From: a virus | IMG/VR virus record: IMGVR_UViG_3300006928_000150 | Coordinates: 1 to 20,138 of that record | Direction: 5' to 3' (one strand) | Length of the DNA stretch: 20,138 nt | Shown here: piece by piece, positions 549 to 16,625 of the stretch | Layout: each line of letters starts with the position of its first letter | How positions within the stretch are numbered: position 1 is the first letter of the stretch | The notes under the pieces: generated by a model | The model's input: the letters and a program-made list of their open reading frames with translations, nothing else | Databases searched by the model: none | Told to the model about the DNA's origin: nothing | Made by a program: the position numbers and the translations under genes

Positions 549-669
549 GCCAGCCGTCTGGCCAGGCCACACTCTTTTTTAGACAGGACAGACAAGCAAG
601 CGCTTCGCTTCACCTAGCCTAAAGGCCCGGTCTTGCTTGTCTGTCCTCGGCGGAATAAACAAGCAAGCA
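549..669. repeat. Divergent copy of hairpin-plus-tag repeat, with inverted second copy
   Basis: GCCAG/CTGGC (549-553/558-562) forms a GC-rich hairpin followed by a T-rich linker and GGACAGACAAGCAAGC (586-601), a variant of the repeat found at 1147, 1917, 1989, 2057 and 2129. A perfect 16-bp inverted copy of AGGACAGACAAGCAAG (585-600) lies at 632-647, and a third fragment, ACAAGCAAGCA, at 659-669. The gap between two convergent genes therefore contains this element in both orientations, bracketed by two terminators. Confidence 0.7.
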
Positions 670-1112: not shown

Positions 1113-1174
1113 GCCCAGCCAGGGCCGGGCCGCTGGTATTTTTTGTCAGAACAGACAAGCAAGCAGTCTGTTCT
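1113..1174. repeat. Hairpin-plus-tag repeat copy, tag itself in a 9-bp stem-loop
   Basis: A GC-rich segment with CCAGC (1115-1119) / GCTGG (1132-1136) is followed by TTTT-GT and the 19-base core CAGAACAGACAAGCAAGCA (1147-1165). Here the core is followed by GTCTGTTCT (1166-1174), which pairs with AGAACAGAC (1148-1156) to give a perfect 9-bp stem with a 9-base loop. This isolated copy lies in the non-coding gap between two minus-strand genes. Confidence 0.8.
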
Positions 1175-1240: not shown

Positions 1241-1783
1241 TCAGCAGATGCTGAACCCTCCGCAGTTTTCAACAAAGTGTTGAAACTCTTTGACATTGTC
1301 CACTTCAAAAGGATAGCTAGTTCTAGAGTCTTTGCGCTTTCCTTTGCCTTCACAGCCATTGCAATCACCTTGCACATACTCGTCGTCTCGTTGACCAGTA
1401 CCGTTGCAAATTGGACACTCGACCAATGGCATTGCTTCAATGGCTCGATCATAAAGGACTTTGTAGCTCTCGACACCACCGTTGTCTAACTCGATCTTCA
1501 AAGCGTTGGCAATATACTTGCAAGTCTCTGCGTCGATCTCGTGCCCACTGTTCTCGTGTCCATAAGAGTAATCTTCTTCACTAAGAACCTCAGAACAAAG
1601 CTCATAAACATAGTCCCAAAGTGGTCGCCAAAACCAAACATTGTTTCTAAAGTATTGACCACTTTTAGCTTGACCATCAAAATAGTCTTGCCATGCTTTT
1701 TCCTGCCATTCTTCTGGCATATTCTCGTCAGGTCGTGGTGCTGCTTCTGTTGTTGGATTTAATCCATATACATCCATTCCCAT
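1241..1783 (-). CDS. MGMDVYG-type phage protein with DnaJ-like zinc motif
   Basis: The start is ATG 1783, because AAGGAGAACAAC directly precedes it; an upstream in-frame codon at 1822 would overlap the promoter. The N-terminus MGMDVYGLNP and the segment YFRNNVWFWRPLWDYVYELC (44-63) are typical of a widespread uncharacterised phage and bacterial family. Residues 123-148 carry CPICNGTG and CNGCEGKG (Cys 123, 126, 141, 144), the repeat of the DnaJ central zinc-binding domain; two repeats would make one zinc centre. There is no J-domain, so it is not a full co-chaperone. A role in protein or nucleic-acid binding is plausible but unproven. It has its own promoter at 1814-1842. Confidence 0.85.
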   Translation of the reverse strand: MGMDVYGLNPTTEAAPRPDENMPEEWQEKAWQDYFDGQAKSGQYFRNNVWFWRPLWDYVYELCSEVLSEEDYSYGHENSGHEIDAETCKYIANALKIELDNGGVESYKVLYDRAIEAMPLVECPICNGTGQRDDEYVQGDCNGCEGKGKRKDSRTSYPFEVDNVKEFQHFVENCGGFSIC

Positions 1784-1813
1784 GTTGTTCTCCTTGTTTG
1801 TTAAAGAACCTAC

Positions 1814-1842
1814 ATTATACAAAATATCCTATAAAAATACAA
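1814..1842 (-). promoter_or_regulatory. Promoter for the 1241-1783 gene
   Basis: On the minus strand: TTGTAT (complement 1837-1842), a 17-bp spacer, TATAAT (complement 1814-1819). The leader GTAGGTTCTTTAACAAACAA then runs into the RBS AAGGAG. Same layout as the promoter at 1058-1086. Confidence 0.78.
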
Positions 1843-1882
1843 ACCTTTTTTCACCAACTGCTGTGTTGCGATCTGCTGCTAA

Positions 1883-2147
1883 CGCCGGGCCCAGGCCGCT
1901 GCTGGCGCGTTCTTGTCAGAACAGACAAGCAAGCACCAATAGCTACATTACGCGCGCCAGCGGCAACCTGGGACGCTGGGTCTTTTGTCAGAACAGACAA
2001 GCAAGCAGGGCTATGATCCTGCTGCCAGGCTGGCCCAGGGACGGCAGCTCTTTTGCCAGAACAGACAAGCAAGCACCTACAGCTACATTGTGTGCACCAG
2101 CCGCGGCCCTGGGAAGACGCCCTTTTGCCAGAACAGACAAGCAAGCA
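1883..2147. repeat. Array of four hairpin-plus-tag repeats, candidate iterons
   Basis: The 19-base core CAGAACAGACAAGCAAGCA is exactly repeated at 1917-1935, 1989-2007, 2057-2075 and 2129-2147, with 72-, 68- and 72-bp periods. Each is preceded by TCTTG or TTTTG and a GC-rich inverted repeat: CGCC/GGCG 1883/1904, CCAGCG/CGCTGG 1957/1974, GCTGCC/GGCAGC 2021/2043, CCAG/CTGG 2097/2109. The first and third intervals also share a stretch like AGCTACATT. This 376-bp gap (1784-2159) has no credible gene. The array ends two bases before the first DnaA box, so an origin role is likely. Alternatives are a regulatory RNA array or a REP-like intergenic element. Confidence 0.85.
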
Positions 2148-2148
2148 G

Positions 2149-2190
2149 TTATCCACAGGTTATCCACAGTTTTTGGGAAAGTTATCCACA
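2149..2190 (+). other. Three perfect DnaA boxes, candidate replication origin
   Basis: TTATCCACA occurs at 2149-2157, 2160-2168 and 2182-2190, all in the same orientation, with starts 11 and 22 bp apart (one and two helical turns). This is the E. coli consensus DnaA site. Two boxes lie within the 3' end of the nuclease gene, and the second contains its stop codon. Together with the adjacent repeats and AT-rich DNA at about 2520-2660, this has the appearance of a replication origin. Confidence 0.75.
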
Positions 2191-2582
2191 GCTTTTGCCC
2201 ATGATTCTTCGAGCACGGCCCAAGAACCTTGGTCCCCGGTCCATATAGGTTCTGTTTTTAGCCCATGGACGACCAACGACTCGACCTGGGACGCATGATA
2301 GAGGTGCATCGTAAATTTTCTGGGGGTAGAAGGGCGGAGGGCCTGTACCAAGATAAAAGCGGGCGTATCTGCTCTCTCTTCGTGATATGCGATCTGGTGC
2401 GGCGATAGCGAAACTTTATTACTTTGGGTTACTTTAAGTTCAGCAGTAAAGTACACGCCAGCTGGAGACACCCCCAATACATCGGGAATACCGAGATTAA
2501 CCCATGATTCAATGCGTATCAGCCGAAACGATTTCAAATTCGTTTTAACTTTTTTCCAAAATAAAGACTCTTTTTTAGCCAC
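2160..2582 (-). CDS. PD-(D/E)XK nuclease, VRR-NUC / resolvase-like
   Basis: The protein (140 aa) shows the nuclease core: Glu25 in helix 1, GIPD with Asp34, AELK with Glu48 and Lys50, and Gln63 in the following helix (SLSPHQIAYH). This arrangement is typical of VRR-NUC and Holliday-junction-resolvase-type phage endonucleases, which cut branched or damaged DNA using Mg2+. The start is GTG 2582; an in-frame stop lies just upstream and there is no ATG until the C-terminal half. No clear Shine-Dalgarno precedes it, which is unusual here. Its stop codon lies inside a DnaA box, so gene end and origin candidate overlap. The C-terminal ~50 residues have no recognised motif. A role in recombination or replication-intermediate processing is inferred. 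Confidence 0.82.
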   Translation of the reverse strand: MAKKESLFWKKVKTNLKSFRLIRIESWVNLGIPDVLGVSPAGVYFTAELKVTQSNKVSLSPHQIAYHEERADTPAFILVQALRPSTPRKFTMHLYHASQVESLVVHGLKTEPIWTGDQGSWAVLEESWAKAVDNFPKNCG

Positions 2583-2748
2583 AGTAAGTCGAGTGTATCA
2601 AACTAGAATAAAAATAACTTGATATATAAGACAGGTTTGATAGACTTGAGTAGTGTAGAGAAATAACTTTCTACACGGATAAACGACGGGTAGTGTCGGT
2701 TTCGATTGGCACTACTTGTAAAAACAAACTTAACTAAGGGAGTTAATT
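2583..2748 (+). promoter_or_regulatory. Promoter and structured leader of the clamp-like gene
   Basis: A possible promoter is TTGATA 2619-2624, 16-bp spacer, TAGACT 2641-2646. Transcription would start near 2653, exactly where a stem GTGTAGA (2653-2659) / TCTACAC (2670-2676) begins. A second stem, GTAGTGTC (2690-2697) / GGCACTAC (2708-2715), with one G-T pair, follows. The leader ends in AAACTTAACTAAGGGAG before ATG 2749. The two hairpins may protect the RNA or respond to a signal; no known riboswitch class is recognised. Confidence 0.5.
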
Positions 2749-3390
2749 ATGGACAAAATAAAACACTTAAACGGCGAAATGTTAGCCAGAGCTTGCGCTT
2801 TTGCAGCCAAGCCAAAAGACCCACGCTTCTATTTAAGAAGTGTGTTTGTTGAACGCAGAGAAGAGGGAGGTGTTTACATTGTATCTACCAATGGCCATGT
2901 TCTTTGTTGTTACACAGATCCTTTTGCAATACCTCACTTGGATTTTGATAGTGTAATGATAGACATTTATCAAGAAAACTCATCTAGGATTAAACCAATC
3001 TTTACTCAACTAAAGAAAACTAGTGAAGCTAGAATTGATGTTGAGGATCAAGATGGACAAGGTGGTGTTTCTATTCGATACAACGACGATACGACTTTTG
3101 TAAGAACCATTGAAGGGACTTTTCCTGACTGGCAACAGATATTTAAGCAAGAAGTTGAGCATCAAGAAAATGTAAGTTTTGATCCAAAATACTTGGGTTT
3201 ATTAAAAGACTTTGTATTAAAAGGATCAAATGATTCAGTCACGCTTCTTCGATCTAGTACAGAGAAAGTTAATATCTTTCAGACACCGAATGGAGTTGTT
3301 GGAGTTATGCCAAGAAAAACACAGGACCTAGACGACAATGAACTTTTGAGCTCAGAAGTTGCGATTCTTGAAGAGGTGTCCAATGGCTGA
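2749..3390 (+). CDS. Short DnaN-like sliding-clamp protein
   Basis: Several segments match landmarks of the bacterial DNA polymerase III beta clamp in order: VYIVSTNGHVL (42-52; compare LVATDGHRL in DnaN), IEGTFPDWQQIF (121-132; compare the DGRFPDYRRV motif), FDPKYLGLL (144-152; compare FNVSYVLDVL), and GVVGVMPRK near 182-190 (compare the C-terminal YVVMPMR). At 213 aa it is much shorter than a 366-aa clamp and appears to hold only the equivalents of domains II and III. It may be a trimmed clamp, a clamp mimic or a clamp-loader-interacting factor. The RBS is GGGAG seven bases upstream. It opens a ten-gene operon, and its stop overlaps the next start by eight bases (ATGGCTGA). Confidence 0.65.
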   Translation: MDKIKHLNGEMLARACAFAAKPKDPRFYLRSVFVERREEGGVYIVSTNGHVLCCYTDPFAIPHLDFDSVMIDIYQENSSRIKPIFTQLKKTSEARIDVEDQDGQGGVSIRYNDDTTFVRTIEGTFPDWQQIFKQEVEHQENVSFDPKYLGLLKDFVLKGSNDSVTLLRSSTEKVNIFQTPNGVVGVMPRKTQDLDDNELLSSEVAILEEVSNG

Positions 3391-4894: not shown

Positions 4895-5021
4895 TGAATA
4901 CTTGTTAATTAGTTCTAATGGACAAAAAGTTAGGCTTTGTACTCAAATTGAAAAAGAAGCACACAAGCTGGCAAAAAGAGCCATAAGACTATTAAACAGG
5001 ACTAATCAGAACCTTCAGTAA
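4863..5021 (+). CDS. 52-aa basic protein at operon end
   Basis: The ATG at 4863 lies inside the DUF3310 gene in another frame, with AAGGTG about eight bases upstream. The 52-residue product begins MQDYQLIKKPDEYLLISSNG and continues as a basic helix (IEKEAHKLAKRAIRLLNRTN). The N-terminal half looks like a small beta hairpin and the C-terminal half like an amphipathic helix. It runs 20 bases into the 3' end of the convergent terminase small subunit gene. It is long enough and coherent enough to be real, but no family is recognised. Confidence 0.6.
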   Translation: MQDYQLIKKPDEYLLISSNGQKVRLCTQIEKEAHKLAKRAIRLLNRTNQNLQ

Positions 5022-5511
5022 ATACAGCCTCTTCTGCCTCTAAGAGAGGTTTGTAGTCTGACAACAGGTCCTTAATTCTTTTCTTGATTTCAGTTTCAGA
5101 TAAAGAATCCAAAGAACCTGTACGGATCTCTTTACGCTCAACATAAAGTCCCGCAGCCCTCCCTCTTTGCACTTCAGCTGACACCGCAGCAGTCAAATTA
5201 CCTTTTTCTAAGGCCTGATCTCGAATGTCTGCTAATTTTCTAACATGCCTACCAAATGTAACTTCATACTTCCGATCTACTTCAGCTTGGAGTTCTCTTA
5301 TATATCTGACTACAACAGGGTATTTTTGTGGGTTTAAAAGTTCTGATGCTCTGACATGCGCACTTTCTTTGCTGTACCCGGCTGAAATGGCGCACTCGGT
5401 TTGTGTTTTAGATCCGTCGTTATAAACAAACTCTTTTGCAAACTTAATTTGTTTGTGAGTCAGGTGTTTATCGTTTCGACCTTGTAAGTTTCCTGATGTT
5501 CCCTTTGGCAT
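5002..5511 (-). CDS. terS: Terminase small subunit
   Basis: The 169-aa protein carries the N-terminal helix-turn-helix of the Terminase_2 type: LTHKQIKFAKEFV, then a Gln-Thr-Glu-Cys-Ala segment, AISAGYSKESAHVRASELL and NPQKYPVVVRYI (about 17-69). A long helical region for oligomerisation follows, with an acidic C-terminus (LLEAEEAVFTEGSD). TerS rings recognise the packaging start site and pass DNA to the large terminase. The start is ATG 5511, with no Shine-Dalgarno; a -10 box ends five bases upstream, so the message may be leaderless. It lies on the minus strand alone: no large terminase follows downstream, where plus-strand small genes converge on it. The repeat-rich block upstream is a candidate recognition site. 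Confidence 0.85.
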   Translation of the reverse strand: MPKGTSGNLQGRNDKHLTHKQIKFAKEFVYNDGSKTQTECAISAGYSKESAHVRASELLNPQKYPVVVRYIRELQAEVDRKYEVTFGRHVRKLADIRDQALEKGNLTAAVSAEVQRGRAAGLYVERKEIRTGSLDSLSETEIKKRIKDLLSDYKPLLEAEEAVFTEGSD

Positions 5512-5889: not shown

Positions 5890-6042
5890 ATGGAAATAGC
5901 AAGAAAACTCTGGAAAATGACCAAAAGTCCCTGGTCCTTCGTCCCTCAAAAACTCAATGAACGTCAAATTGTACAATTCCTACTCGACGTATTTTTATCC
6001 ACAATTATACTTGTATGTATGGGACTAGTTTTATATACTTAG
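5890..6042 (+). CDS. Small protein with C-terminal membrane helix (50 aa)
   Basis: The ATG at 5890 follows GGAG (5878-5881) by eight bases. The product begins MEIARKLWKMTKSPWSFVPQ, a basic aromatic N-terminus, and ends in one hydrophobic helix (FLLDVFLSTIILVCMGLVLY). It is probably a tail-anchored or single-pass membrane protein. The next gene starts three bases after its stop, so the two are likely co-translated. No homologue is recognised. Confidence 0.6.
   Translation: MEIARKLWKMTKSPWSFVPQKLNERQIVQFLLDVFLSTIILVCMGLVLYT
6011..6039 (+). promoter_or_regulatory. Possible internal promoter before 6046
   Basis: TTGTAT 6011-6016, 17-bp spacer, TATACT 6034-6039, six bases before ATG 6046. It lies within codons of the preceding small gene, so it may be chance. 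If used, the 6046 message would be leaderless. Confidence 0.35.
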
Positions 6043-11742: not shown

Positions 11743-13191
11743 TTATTTAAACCAGTTTCGTATTTCTCCAAGAACCTCGTTGCTAATTTTAACTTTACTC
11801 AAAAGGTTTTGAAGGATTTTTTCATCAACAGTGTTCTTTGATACAAGGTCGATGTATGTGCAGCTTTTGTTTTGCCCTATTCTATGAATCCGATCCTCGG
11901 CTTGCACTCTAAGTTCTAAATCATAGGAATTAGAATAAAATATCATGGTACTCGCTTCAGTTAAAGTAATACCTCGACCACCTGTTTGTGGGTTAGAAAT
12001 GAAGTAGCGCAACTCAGACTCTGGATCTTGAAACCTATCAATTATTTTTTGTCTTTCGTCTTGTGGTGTTTTGCCGTAGTAAGAAGCCACAGACCGTTCA
12101 CCAAACTTATCAGCTATTGCTTTTTGTAACTGCTCAATGTCAGTTTGAAACACAGCAAAGATAACAACTTTGCCAGATGTTTCTTCTAGTAGGTCTAGCA
12201 CAGCACGTACTCGATTGTTGTTAAGAACAATTGTTTCACCGTCTTCGTTACGCAAACTACCAGCAACGACTTGTTGCAACCGCATGATCTGTGTCAAAAC
12301 ATTCATGGTGCTAAACACTTCGTTCTCTAAAACCATCAATGCTTTTTGTTTCATCGTGCCATACGCTTTTTTCTGTTCATCGGTCAGCTCAACATAACGC
12401 TTTGTATATACTTTGGCAGGAAGGTCTAGGCATTGGTCCTTAGTCTTACGAATGGAAAAGTCTTTGATGGATTCTTGAAGCTCCTCAAGCCTTTGAAAAC
12501 CTACAATTTGTTGAAAGCTGTGCGATCCCATGCGACGCGCTTGAGTGATTGCATAACGTGCGCTGAACGCATAATAACTACTGAACCCCAACAAGTTAGG
12601 CGACAGAAAATAACACTGGCTGTACAAATCCAACGGTGCTTTTGTAATGGGAAACCCTGTAAGGATTCTTCGATAGTCAGCTAGAGGTGCCAACTTGATT
12701 AAATGTTTTGTTCTTTTAGCTTTCGGATTTTTTATCGTAGTGGATTCATCAATGGCCATCATTGCATCGTGCGTAACCAAAAACTCTTCCACAAATTTAC
12801 ATGCTTTGACAGTAGCAAAAGCCTCTACGTTGACTAGAAATATATTTAGTATGCCGTCGCTGTCACCTTCGACCATTTCTTTGTAGTCCTTGAGCCATTG
12901 TTTAGTATGATTAGGCTGCCAAACCAAAACGTTTCTTTGTATGTGATCAGGCAAATGTTTGTTTACCTCATGCACGTCCCAGTTTCTTAAATTACCTTTT
13001 GGTGATACAATTAAGAGTCCAGAAATTTTTTCTTGGTCAAACAATATAGCAGCGTTGTCTAACAAGATTTTTGATTTGCCAAGACCCATTTCAAGGAAAA
13101 GTGCGTAAAGATTTTTGTGAGCACTCTTAGCTAAAGTTTCTCGTTGGTGTTTGTAAGGTTCGGTTTTGTAATTATACGTCTCTATATCCAT
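11743..13191 (-). CDS. SNF2-family DEAD/H-like helicase
   Basis: Superfamily 2 motifs appear in order: YKHQRETL (13-20, Q-like motif), EMGLGKSK (34-41, motif I, Walker A), AIDESTT (146-152, motif II as DEST), ILTGFPI (176-182, motif III), and RIHRIGQNKS (about 434-443, motif VI, typical of SNF2/Rad54 proteins). Such ATPases translocate on duplex DNA and displace proteins or remodel forks. At 482 aa it is a compact two-domain enzyme with no accessory domain. I chose ATG 13191 (MDIETYNYKT...) because AAGGA lies at a good distance; ATG 13200 and 13233 are in frame. It is transcribed from a promoter that overlaps the opposite replication-operon promoter. It heads the operon that ends with the large virion-type protein. 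Confidence 0.93.
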   Translation of the reverse strand: MDIETYNYKTEPYKHQRETLAKSAHKNLYALFLEMGLGKSKILLDNAAILFDQEKISGLLIVSPKGNLRNWDVHEVNKHLPDHIQRNVLVWQPNHTKQWLKDYKEMVEGDSDGILNIFLVNVEAFATVKACKFVEEFLVTHDAMMAIDESTTIKNPKAKRTKHLIKLAPLADYRRILTGFPITKAPLDLYSQCYFLSPNLLGFSSYYAFSARYAITQARRMGSHSFQQIVGFQRLEELQESIKDFSIRKTKDQCLDLPAKVYTKRYVELTDEQKKAYGTMKQKALMVLENEVFSTMNVLTQIMRLQQVVAGSLRNEDGETIVLNNNRVRAVLDLLEETSGKVVIFAVFQTDIEQLQKAIADKFGERSVASYYGKTPQDERQKIIDRFQDPESELRYFISNPQTGGRGITLTEASTMIFYSNSYDLELRVQAEDRIHRIGQNKSCTYIDLVSKNTVDEKILQNLLSKVKISNEVLGEIRNWFK

Positions 13192-15032: not shown

Positions 15033-16625
15033 GTGAAAGAAAAAGCAGAAATTTTGATGAGCATTTTCTCTGGTTTAACTAGAGCACACGGAATTTATGA
15101 AATAACAGGAAAGCAAAAGAACACAGCGAAAGGAATTAAGAAAGAAGGCAGAGGAAAAACTCTGCATCAACCAGTTACAACAGAGCTTTGGCAAAAACAC
15201 GTTGCCGGAGAGGTATCAATAGGGATTATTCCTTTAACAGATGATGAAAAATGTTCTTGGGGATGTATTGATGTGGACGAATATCCCATTAATACAAAAC
15301 AAATTCTGAAAACAATCAGTGAAATGCAACTACCTCTTGTACCCTGTATGACAAAATCAGGCGGGGTTCATCTGTTTATGTTTACAAAAGAACCAATACC
15401 CGCGTTTAAGTTTCAAAACAAACTAGAAGAGATAGCGGCAGCAATGGGTCGTACAGGTGATGAGATATTTCCAAAGCAGTACGAATGGTCAAAGCAGTTG
15501 CCTCAAGAAAAGCAAACAGGAAACTGGTTAAACATGCCATATTTTTCTGGAGACGATACTACACGATACGCTCTCAACTCAAAGGGAGACGCTTTAAGTA
15601 TTGAAGAGTTTGTAAGGGTTGTAAAAAGAAGATCAATCAGCGAGGAAGATTTAGACAAGTTTGTTGCGATAAAGAAAAGTCGCAAGAAGCAATTAGACAA
15701 GAAGAATGGTTTGTGGGAAGAAGCTCCACCTTGTTTGGTACACATGAAACTAAACGGAGTTCCAGAGGGTACAAGAAACAACGCAATGCTAAATTACGGA
15801 GTATTTTTAAGAAAGGTTTATCCTGAAGGTGAAGAGTGGAAAGACAAACTACAGGAAGTAAACAAGACAGCTTGCACAAACGCTTTGTCTCACAGCGAAC
15901 TTAACTCAATCATACAAAGCTTAGAAAAAACCGATTATAAATATCAGTGTGGTAAAGACCCACTAAAAGGTTTTTGTCAGAGCGGTATCTGTATAACCAA
16001 AAGATACGGCATAGACGCATCACAAAGAGAACCTGTTTATGGTGGTCTTAGAAAGTACATGACTGATCCACCTCTTTGGCATTTAGATATTGATGGCCAA
16101 ACAATTGTTTTAGAAACAAAACAGCTTCATAACTTTTCGTTATATCAACAGAAATGTATGGAAGTTTTGAATATATGCCCACCTGATAAAAAGAAATCAG
16201 ATTGGGTTGCACAACTTAACGCATGGTTACAAGAAGTGCAGATAGTTGATGTGCCTTCTGATATGACAAAGAGAGGGGTGTTAAAAGACGCAATCTACGA
16301 GTTTTGCAGAATATCAGAGTCCTCTTCTCGTATGGCTTTGGTTTCTGGTGGCGTGTATAGACACGAAGAAGACAATTTAAAAGAGTGGTGGTTTACAGGT
16401 AGAGATGCAGTCATCTTTATACAAGAGTTTAAAAAAATGAGAAACATTAAAGAAGCAGAAGTGTTTACACAGTTAAAAGAAATGGGAGGACTTAACGCAT
16501 CTAAATGGGTTGACAAGGCTGTTGGAAACAAAAAGGTTTGGATTATGGATGTTAAAGAGATAAACGAAGATGCTGTGTCTTTAGATGATTTTAGACTAGA
16601 AACGGAGGACAAAGAATGGGAGTAA
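15033..16625 (+). CDS. DNA primase, archaeo-eukaryotic (TOTE-like) type
   Basis: The catalytic core shows motif I as CIDVDEY (Asp80, Asp82), motif II as SGGVHLF (109-115), and GNWLNMPYF (163-171), the signature of TOTE-like AEP primases. An N-terminal segment (LTRAHGIYEI, ELWQKHVAGEVSIGI) is also typical. Residues 234-320 form a primase C-terminal-like helical domain with four cysteines (234, 306, 315, 320), which may hold a metal or Fe-S centre. The last ~200 residues are an unrecognised, partly helical domain. The enzyme makes primers for the polymerase. The start is GTG 15033: the ATG two bases earlier is followed at once by a stop, and AAGGA lies about seven bases upstream. It overlaps the helicase gene by ten bases. 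Confidence 0.85.
   Translation: MKEKAEILMSIFSGLTRAHGIYEITGKQKNTAKGIKKEGRGKTLHQPVTTELWQKHVAGEVSIGIIPLTDDEKCSWGCIDVDEYPINTKQILKTISEMQLPLVPCMTKSGGVHLFMFTKEPIPAFKFQNKLEEIAAAMGRTGDEIFPKQYEWSKQLPQEKQTGNWLNMPYFSGDDTTRYALNSKGDALSIEEFVRVVKRRSISEEDLDKFVAIKKSRKKQLDKKNGLWEEAPPCLVHMKLNGVPEGTRNNAMLNYGVFLRKVYPEGEEWKDKLQEVNKTACTNALSHSELNSIIQSLEKTDYKYQCGKDPLKGFCQSGICITKRYGIDASQREPVYGGLRKYMTDPPLWHLDIDGQTIVLETKQLHNFSLYQQKCMEVLNICPPDKKKSDWVAQLNAWLQEVQIVDVPSDMTKRGVLKDAIYEFCRISESSSRMALVSGGVYRHEEDNLKEWWFTGRDAVIFIQEFKKMRNIKEAEVFTQLKEMGGLNASKWVDKAVGNKKVWIMDVKEINEDAVSLDDFRLETEDKEWE

Follow-up and report, generated by a model that had tools for sequence, protein, structure and literature searches.

Stem-loop origins of rolling-circle replicons combine a constant loop with a variable stem. 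Plasmid iterons are described as lying in phase with the DNA helix (PMC5043065), and standalone VRR-NUC proteins cleave four-way junctions (PMC4103454). Here we compare systems of these kinds with an array of short direct repeats (tags) in the window, a 20,138-bp linear virus record (Table 1). The locus belongs to a marine podophage lineage, the relatives of the pelagiphages HTVC027P and HTVC023P. Comparison of the relatives supports the description of the array as a conserved non-coding cis element. We propose that it may be a cis-acting, origin-type replicator locus, which would recruit DnaA in the window's lineage (probability about 0.42).

Table 1. Features of the array and its surroundings in the window.
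Feature	Position	Strand	Remark
Variant tag	584..602	+	Pairs with 631-646; ~15 bp inverted repeat between two convergent terminators
Variant tag	651..669	+	3 mismatches
Solitary tag as stem-loop AGAACAGAC-AAGCAAGCA-GTCTGTTCT	1148-1174	+	From folding and a stem survey of relatives
'MGMDVYG' protein gene	1241..1783	-	Left of array; weak DnaJ-type zinc motif
Array tag 1, CAGAACAGACAAGCAAGCA	1917..1935	+	Exact match
Stretch with three GC-rich inter-tag spacers	1936..2128		Variable; structure reflects composition only
Array tag 2, CAGAACAGACAAGCAAGCA	1989..2007	+	Exact match
Array tag 3, CAGAACAGACAAGCAAGCA	2057..2075	+	Exact match
Array tag 4, CAGAACAGACAAGCAAGCA	2129..2147	+	Exact match; 1 base before DnaA box 1
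DnaA box 1, TTATCCACA	2149..2157	+	Exact match
DnaA box 2, TTATCCACA	2160..2168	+	Exact match; supplies nuclease stop codon (TAA)
DnaA box 3, TTATCCACA	2182..2190	+	Exact match
PD-(D/E)XK nuclease gene	2160..2582	-	Predicted Holliday-junction-resolvase/VRR-NUC fold; array's fixed neighbour in relatives
AT-rich block	2540..2750		Between nuclease and clamp genes; nearest block also present in relatives; ~400 bp from boxes
Sliding-clamp-like gene	2749..3390	+	Divergent from nuclease; weak matches (DNA polymerase III beta, phrog_947)
Small terminase subunit gene (Terminase_2)	5002..5511	-	Bears on packaging

The tags of the array follow one another at 72, 68 and 72 bp, and a fifth, solitary exact copy of CAGAACAGACAAGCAAGCA lies at 1147 on the + strand. 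An earlier note on this DNA had described four exact 19-bp cores at 68–72 bp, ending two bases from three perfect DnaA boxes. The array of four and the perfect boxes stand, but the copy at 1147 was unlisted and brings the total to five, and the gap to the boxes is a single base (2148). Allowing up to three mismatches, seven tags were seen in the window against 0.02 expected from shuffles, all on the + strand. The window thus has the several direct repeats of one sequence that mark an iteron origin, and the three boxes, perfect by sequence match, would provide its DnaA sites. A second recurring motif, approximately ACCAAYAGCTACATT, opens many array units (1853-1965 in the window; spacers in the relatives). 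No known RNA families or tRNAs were found in the window, and a description of the tag motif was not found in the literature.

An 18-mer scan of viral contigs returned 27 loci and a tag-plus-DnaA pattern 21, and a search with the nuclease protein was used to remove the bias of motif searching. At 61 of the 64 nuclease loci whose sequence extends 400 bp past the gene, which include near-duplicates and represent 57 distinct downstream sequences, at least four GCTTG (CAAGC on the tag strand) lie within 400 bp past the nuclease. Four CAAGC past the nuclease on the opposite strand were seen at 1/64 loci, and upstream of the nuclease none of 61 loci had at least four pentamers on either strand. These relatives are uncultured contigs, apart from a few named phage records. 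Their tags number 162 forward versus 8 reverse, and the position of the array is fixed across ~40–100% nuclease identity, with CAAGC-NN heptads in distant metagenomic relatives (39–43%). The core ACAAGC(A/G)AGC is invariant, as the search pattern imposed, and the tag's 5' part is clade-specific (GAACAG, GAAAAG, GAAATG, GAACAA or GAGCAA). The place of the polar array is conserved; rapid turnover affects its spacers and this 5' part. Spacings range from 45 to 126 bp with no preferred phase modulo 10.5, and this lack of helical phasing would count against an origin.

In 84,980 cellular genomes the exact 18-mer occurred at chance level only; we rejected the tag as a host repeat, its seven single matches in 257 Gb being close to what chance would give. 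Many contigs stop close to the array, where assembly breaks at repeats and physical ends are both possible. Near the array of a 60-kb relative (G011), the first 118 bp recur at ~59287 with 97% identity (L045 1-118; L047 19287-19404), through either partial duplication or assembly overlap.

Among named phages, the cultured SAR11 phage HTVC027P carries 13 GCTTG in 300 bp at 16505, past the nuclease. This is the most clustered 5-mer of its genome (Poisson p 1.6e-20); CAAGC clusters again at 50.6 kb, there inside a coding gene. The hypothetical HTVC027P_gp32 (L142 16499-16747, - strand) overlaps both the CAAGC array and the end of the nuclease gene; the nuclease is unannotated on its own strand, and gp32 may be spurious. 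023Pt_psg01 has 7 GCTTG (p 5e-11). HTVC023P has, directly past the nuclease homologue, three copies of TTGAGA(A/T)TAACAACGAAA, 56–58 bp apart, so that a 19-bp core unrelated to the window's tag occupies the same place. Its 33-bp repeats after terS (12469-12567), which look like a repetitive small ORF, were excluded from the counts. No CAAGC array was found in the parts read of CRP-901 (30-53 kb) and Pag-Yong1 (20-65 kb), and with TerL only 36–45% identical these two phages are uninformative for packaging versus replication. In DSL-LC04 (L058 18943-19344) the nuclease homologue and the gene annotated as small terminase overlap; they share a strand but apparently not a frame.

The order terS, nuclease, array, terL is found in HTVC027P, 023Pt_psg01 and the window's relatives, and it suits a pac region, in which a small terminase ring would read the polar direct repeats and direct TerL to start headful packaging, with polarity setting the direction. 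In HTVC027P/023Pt the array lies within ~1 kb of terS, a closeness that would favour a packaging site over an origin; in the window the distance is about 3 kb. TerS belongs to Terminase_2, the repeats recall those of SPP1 pac (PMC4737164), and the adjoining Holliday-junction-resolvase-like nuclease could debranch DNA before packaging. However, DnaA boxes, for which no packaging role is known, are fused to the array. TerS is 96–99% identical across relatives with differing tag 5' parts and would therefore have to read the core only, and DSL-LC04 has the nuclease and a related TerS (42%) but no CAAGC array. Moreover, the DNA-binding domains of SF6 TerS were reported to show no preference for pac repeats (PMC4737164). 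We consider a pac region unlikely, though it is the chief competitor of the origin-type reading.

The earlier note had also placed a GC-rich hairpin before each core. Compared with dinucleotide shuffles, the four units folded as DNA gave z = 0.44, -0.88, 1.64 and 1.54; for 90 spacers of relatives (58% GC) the mean was z = -0.12, no better than shuffles. A GC-rich hairpin per unit, with z about 0, was thus rejected. Of the five copies, the solitary one alone forms a real hairpin, which runs through the tag (z = -3.06 for the segment 1105-1176). In solitary copies the tag supplies the 5' arm and the loop of the stem; most array copies have no 3' arm. Perfect stems of at least 7 bp around a AAGCAAGC loop occur in 44/454 distinct-context tags of the relatives against ~0.14 expected (the per-tag chance multiplied by 454). 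Stem alleles differ on both arms (AGAACAGAC, AGAAAAGAC, AGAAGAAAC, AGAAAAAAC, AGGACAGAC) around a constant loop core. These examples were picked because they pair, and an identical pattern could arise by quasi-palindrome correction, so that selection for the hairpin is putative.

The same perfect stems and compensated alleles would be produced if the tags were self-spreading palindromic repeats without phage function, like GC clusters or REP elements, which spread through slippage, template switching and gene conversion and are tolerated in the intergenic space past the nuclease. The modular, hypervariable spacers and the homogenisation of the 5' allele within a genome agree with such spreading. 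Neutral repeats would not be expected to show strict polarity, a fixed place and an invariant core, nor would one expect HTVC023P to have an unrelated repeat there, and we regard this origin of the tags as quite unlikely.

A role in transcription, in which hairpins would end or block it between convergent genes and DnaA would act as a regulator, appears very unlikely. The array does lie between convergent genes in several relatives, in some units GC-rich DNA runs into a final TTTT, and terminator-like sites occur at 1124 and 1966 on the + strand. But the spacers fold like shuffles, many units have no T run, and terminators more distinct than these, at ~520-540 (judged by eye) and 673-700, fall outside the tags. 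The orientation of the array is also kept when a neighbouring gene is inverted: in L035/L037 the 1241 homologue faces the other way beside an unchanged array, which points to a function at the level of DNA, not of the transcript.

The DnaA boxes of the window are all on the + strand, spaced 11 and 22 bp, and where present in relatives they form a helically spaced cluster (11 and 21–22 bp). They are confined to the window's sub-lineage, with nuclease identity of ~67% or more, and absent in the 50–57% group. Even within the former, several genomes have degraded (TTGTCCACA, ATATCCACA) or absent boxes. Most relatives beyond the window's close group keep the array without them, which would argue against an origin, and the boxes appear to have joined the locus late and not to belong to its conserved core. 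Searching relatives for the core beside DnaA boxes, a check proposed in the earlier note, thus found the array conserved but the boxes only in a sub-lineage, with losses. Its layout of iterons plus DnaA boxes holds as a conserved non-coding cis array fused to boxes in the window's lineage, but this pairing is not the conserved state. Box 3, required by no search pattern, is intact in 18/19 close relatives, and the middle box and linker drift; the invariance of box 1 is not independent evidence, because box 1 was part of the selection. A fourth perfect box (5995-6003), conserved in several close relatives, was rejected since it lies in a small ORF (FLSTII) and its conservation is probably coding.

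Being lineage-specific and overlapping the 3' end of the nuclease gene, the boxes could also serve DnaA titration or a DnaA-dependent regulation unrelated to initiation in the window's lineage. We find this highly improbable for only three boxes that are fused to a polar array and at which no promoter-like site was found.

The nuclease gene that had been reported alongside the array is indeed there (2582-2160, - strand), with its TAA stop inside box 2. The AlphaFold model of its product (pLDDT 89.7) has as best PDB matches 4qbn (VRR-NUC, E 7.7e-04), archaeal Hjc and RecU, and a sequence profile matches 4qbn with E 0.01. We therefore predict a PD-(D/E)XK resolvase fold of the VRR-NUC/Hjc Holliday-junction-resolvase type. 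The best PHROG match of the clamp-like gene is labelled RusA-like resolvase. As noted earlier, no initiator gene is recognised nearby: the 719, 1241, nuclease and clamp products have no initiator domain, which would weigh against an origin. The 719 and 1241 products had been named as candidate binding proteins. The absence of such a domain lends this no support, and in some relatives the 1241 homologue stands in the other orientation to the array. The AT-rich DNA described alongside is present (1780-1860, left of the array, and 2540-2750), but it coincides with promoter regions, and where the flanking genes of relatives converge it does not adjoin the array, again a point that would speak against an origin. 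GC skew, suggested as a check, is uninformative on origin or packaging, because raw skew tracks gene direction (in the 60-kb relative) and skew at four-fold sites has no common pattern at the array; no skew of the replication type was seen.

Promoter-like regions of short genes (170-220, 1058-1086, 1795-1850 and 2619-2646) share a TATAAGAYATGTC/TATAAGACAGGT-like stretch that lies between the -35 and -10 hexamers or close to them and may be a phage operator. The primase at 15033-16625 matches an AEP-TOTE domain, in a phage with polymerase A and an SNF2-type helicase.

The DnaA boxes, the polarity of the array and the neighbourhood of replication genes would argue for an origin. The phage's replication genes include polymerase A, a UvrD-like helicase, an AEP-like primase and the clamp-like protein. 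For a replicator, we envisage that a phage protein would bind the CAAGC repeats and build a multi-copy nucleoprotein platform. In the window's lineage, host DnaA would bind the three boxes beside this platform and help to open the DNA or load the helicase; DnaA would be an accessory in one lineage and not the universal initiator. Opening might occur at the AT-rich block between the nuclease and clamp genes, a possible unwinding site, after which the AEP-like primase, UvrD-type helicase and family A polymerase of the phage would copy the genome.

More tentatively, and with the odds against it, the locus may represent a class of replicator defined by its place: a polar short-repeat array beside a resolvase-like nuclease, with fast sequence turnover and, in one lineage, host DnaA boxes grafted on. 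Its repeats would be CAAGC-based in most members and another 19-mer in HTVC023P. The presence of the conserved cis element in cultured HTVC027P, at ~16.5-16.75 kb, makes its function directly testable, and relatives with and without DnaA boxes provide a natural series.

Comparison with known systems places the locus among several types. In a comparison from general knowledge, the solitary tags resemble rolling-circle stem-loop origins in their changing stems around a constant AAGCAAGC loop, whereas no HUH Rep protein is recognised and most array copies have only one arm of the stem. Like the pac sites of the headful phages SPP1 and SF6, the window has direct repeats near terS and a Terminase_2 small subunit; it differs in its DnaA boxes, in an array outside terS and in more copies of one short core. 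HTVC027P, HTVC023P and 023Pt_psg01 share with the window related replication genes and a repeat array past the nuclease homologue, but their arrays consist of CAAGCNN heptads or a different 19-bp core and have no DnaA boxes. Iteron origins with DnaA boxes (plasmids P1 oriR, RK2 and pSC101; lambda ori for the iterons) differ from the window in that its repeats are spaced 68–72 bp without helical phasing and no initiator gene is recognised; several relatives have no adjacent AT-rich unwinding region and distant relatives no DnaA boxes. Nevertheless, the window shares with these origins several direct repeats of ~19 bp near replication genes and, with those of P1, RK2 and pSC101, adjoining DnaA boxes.
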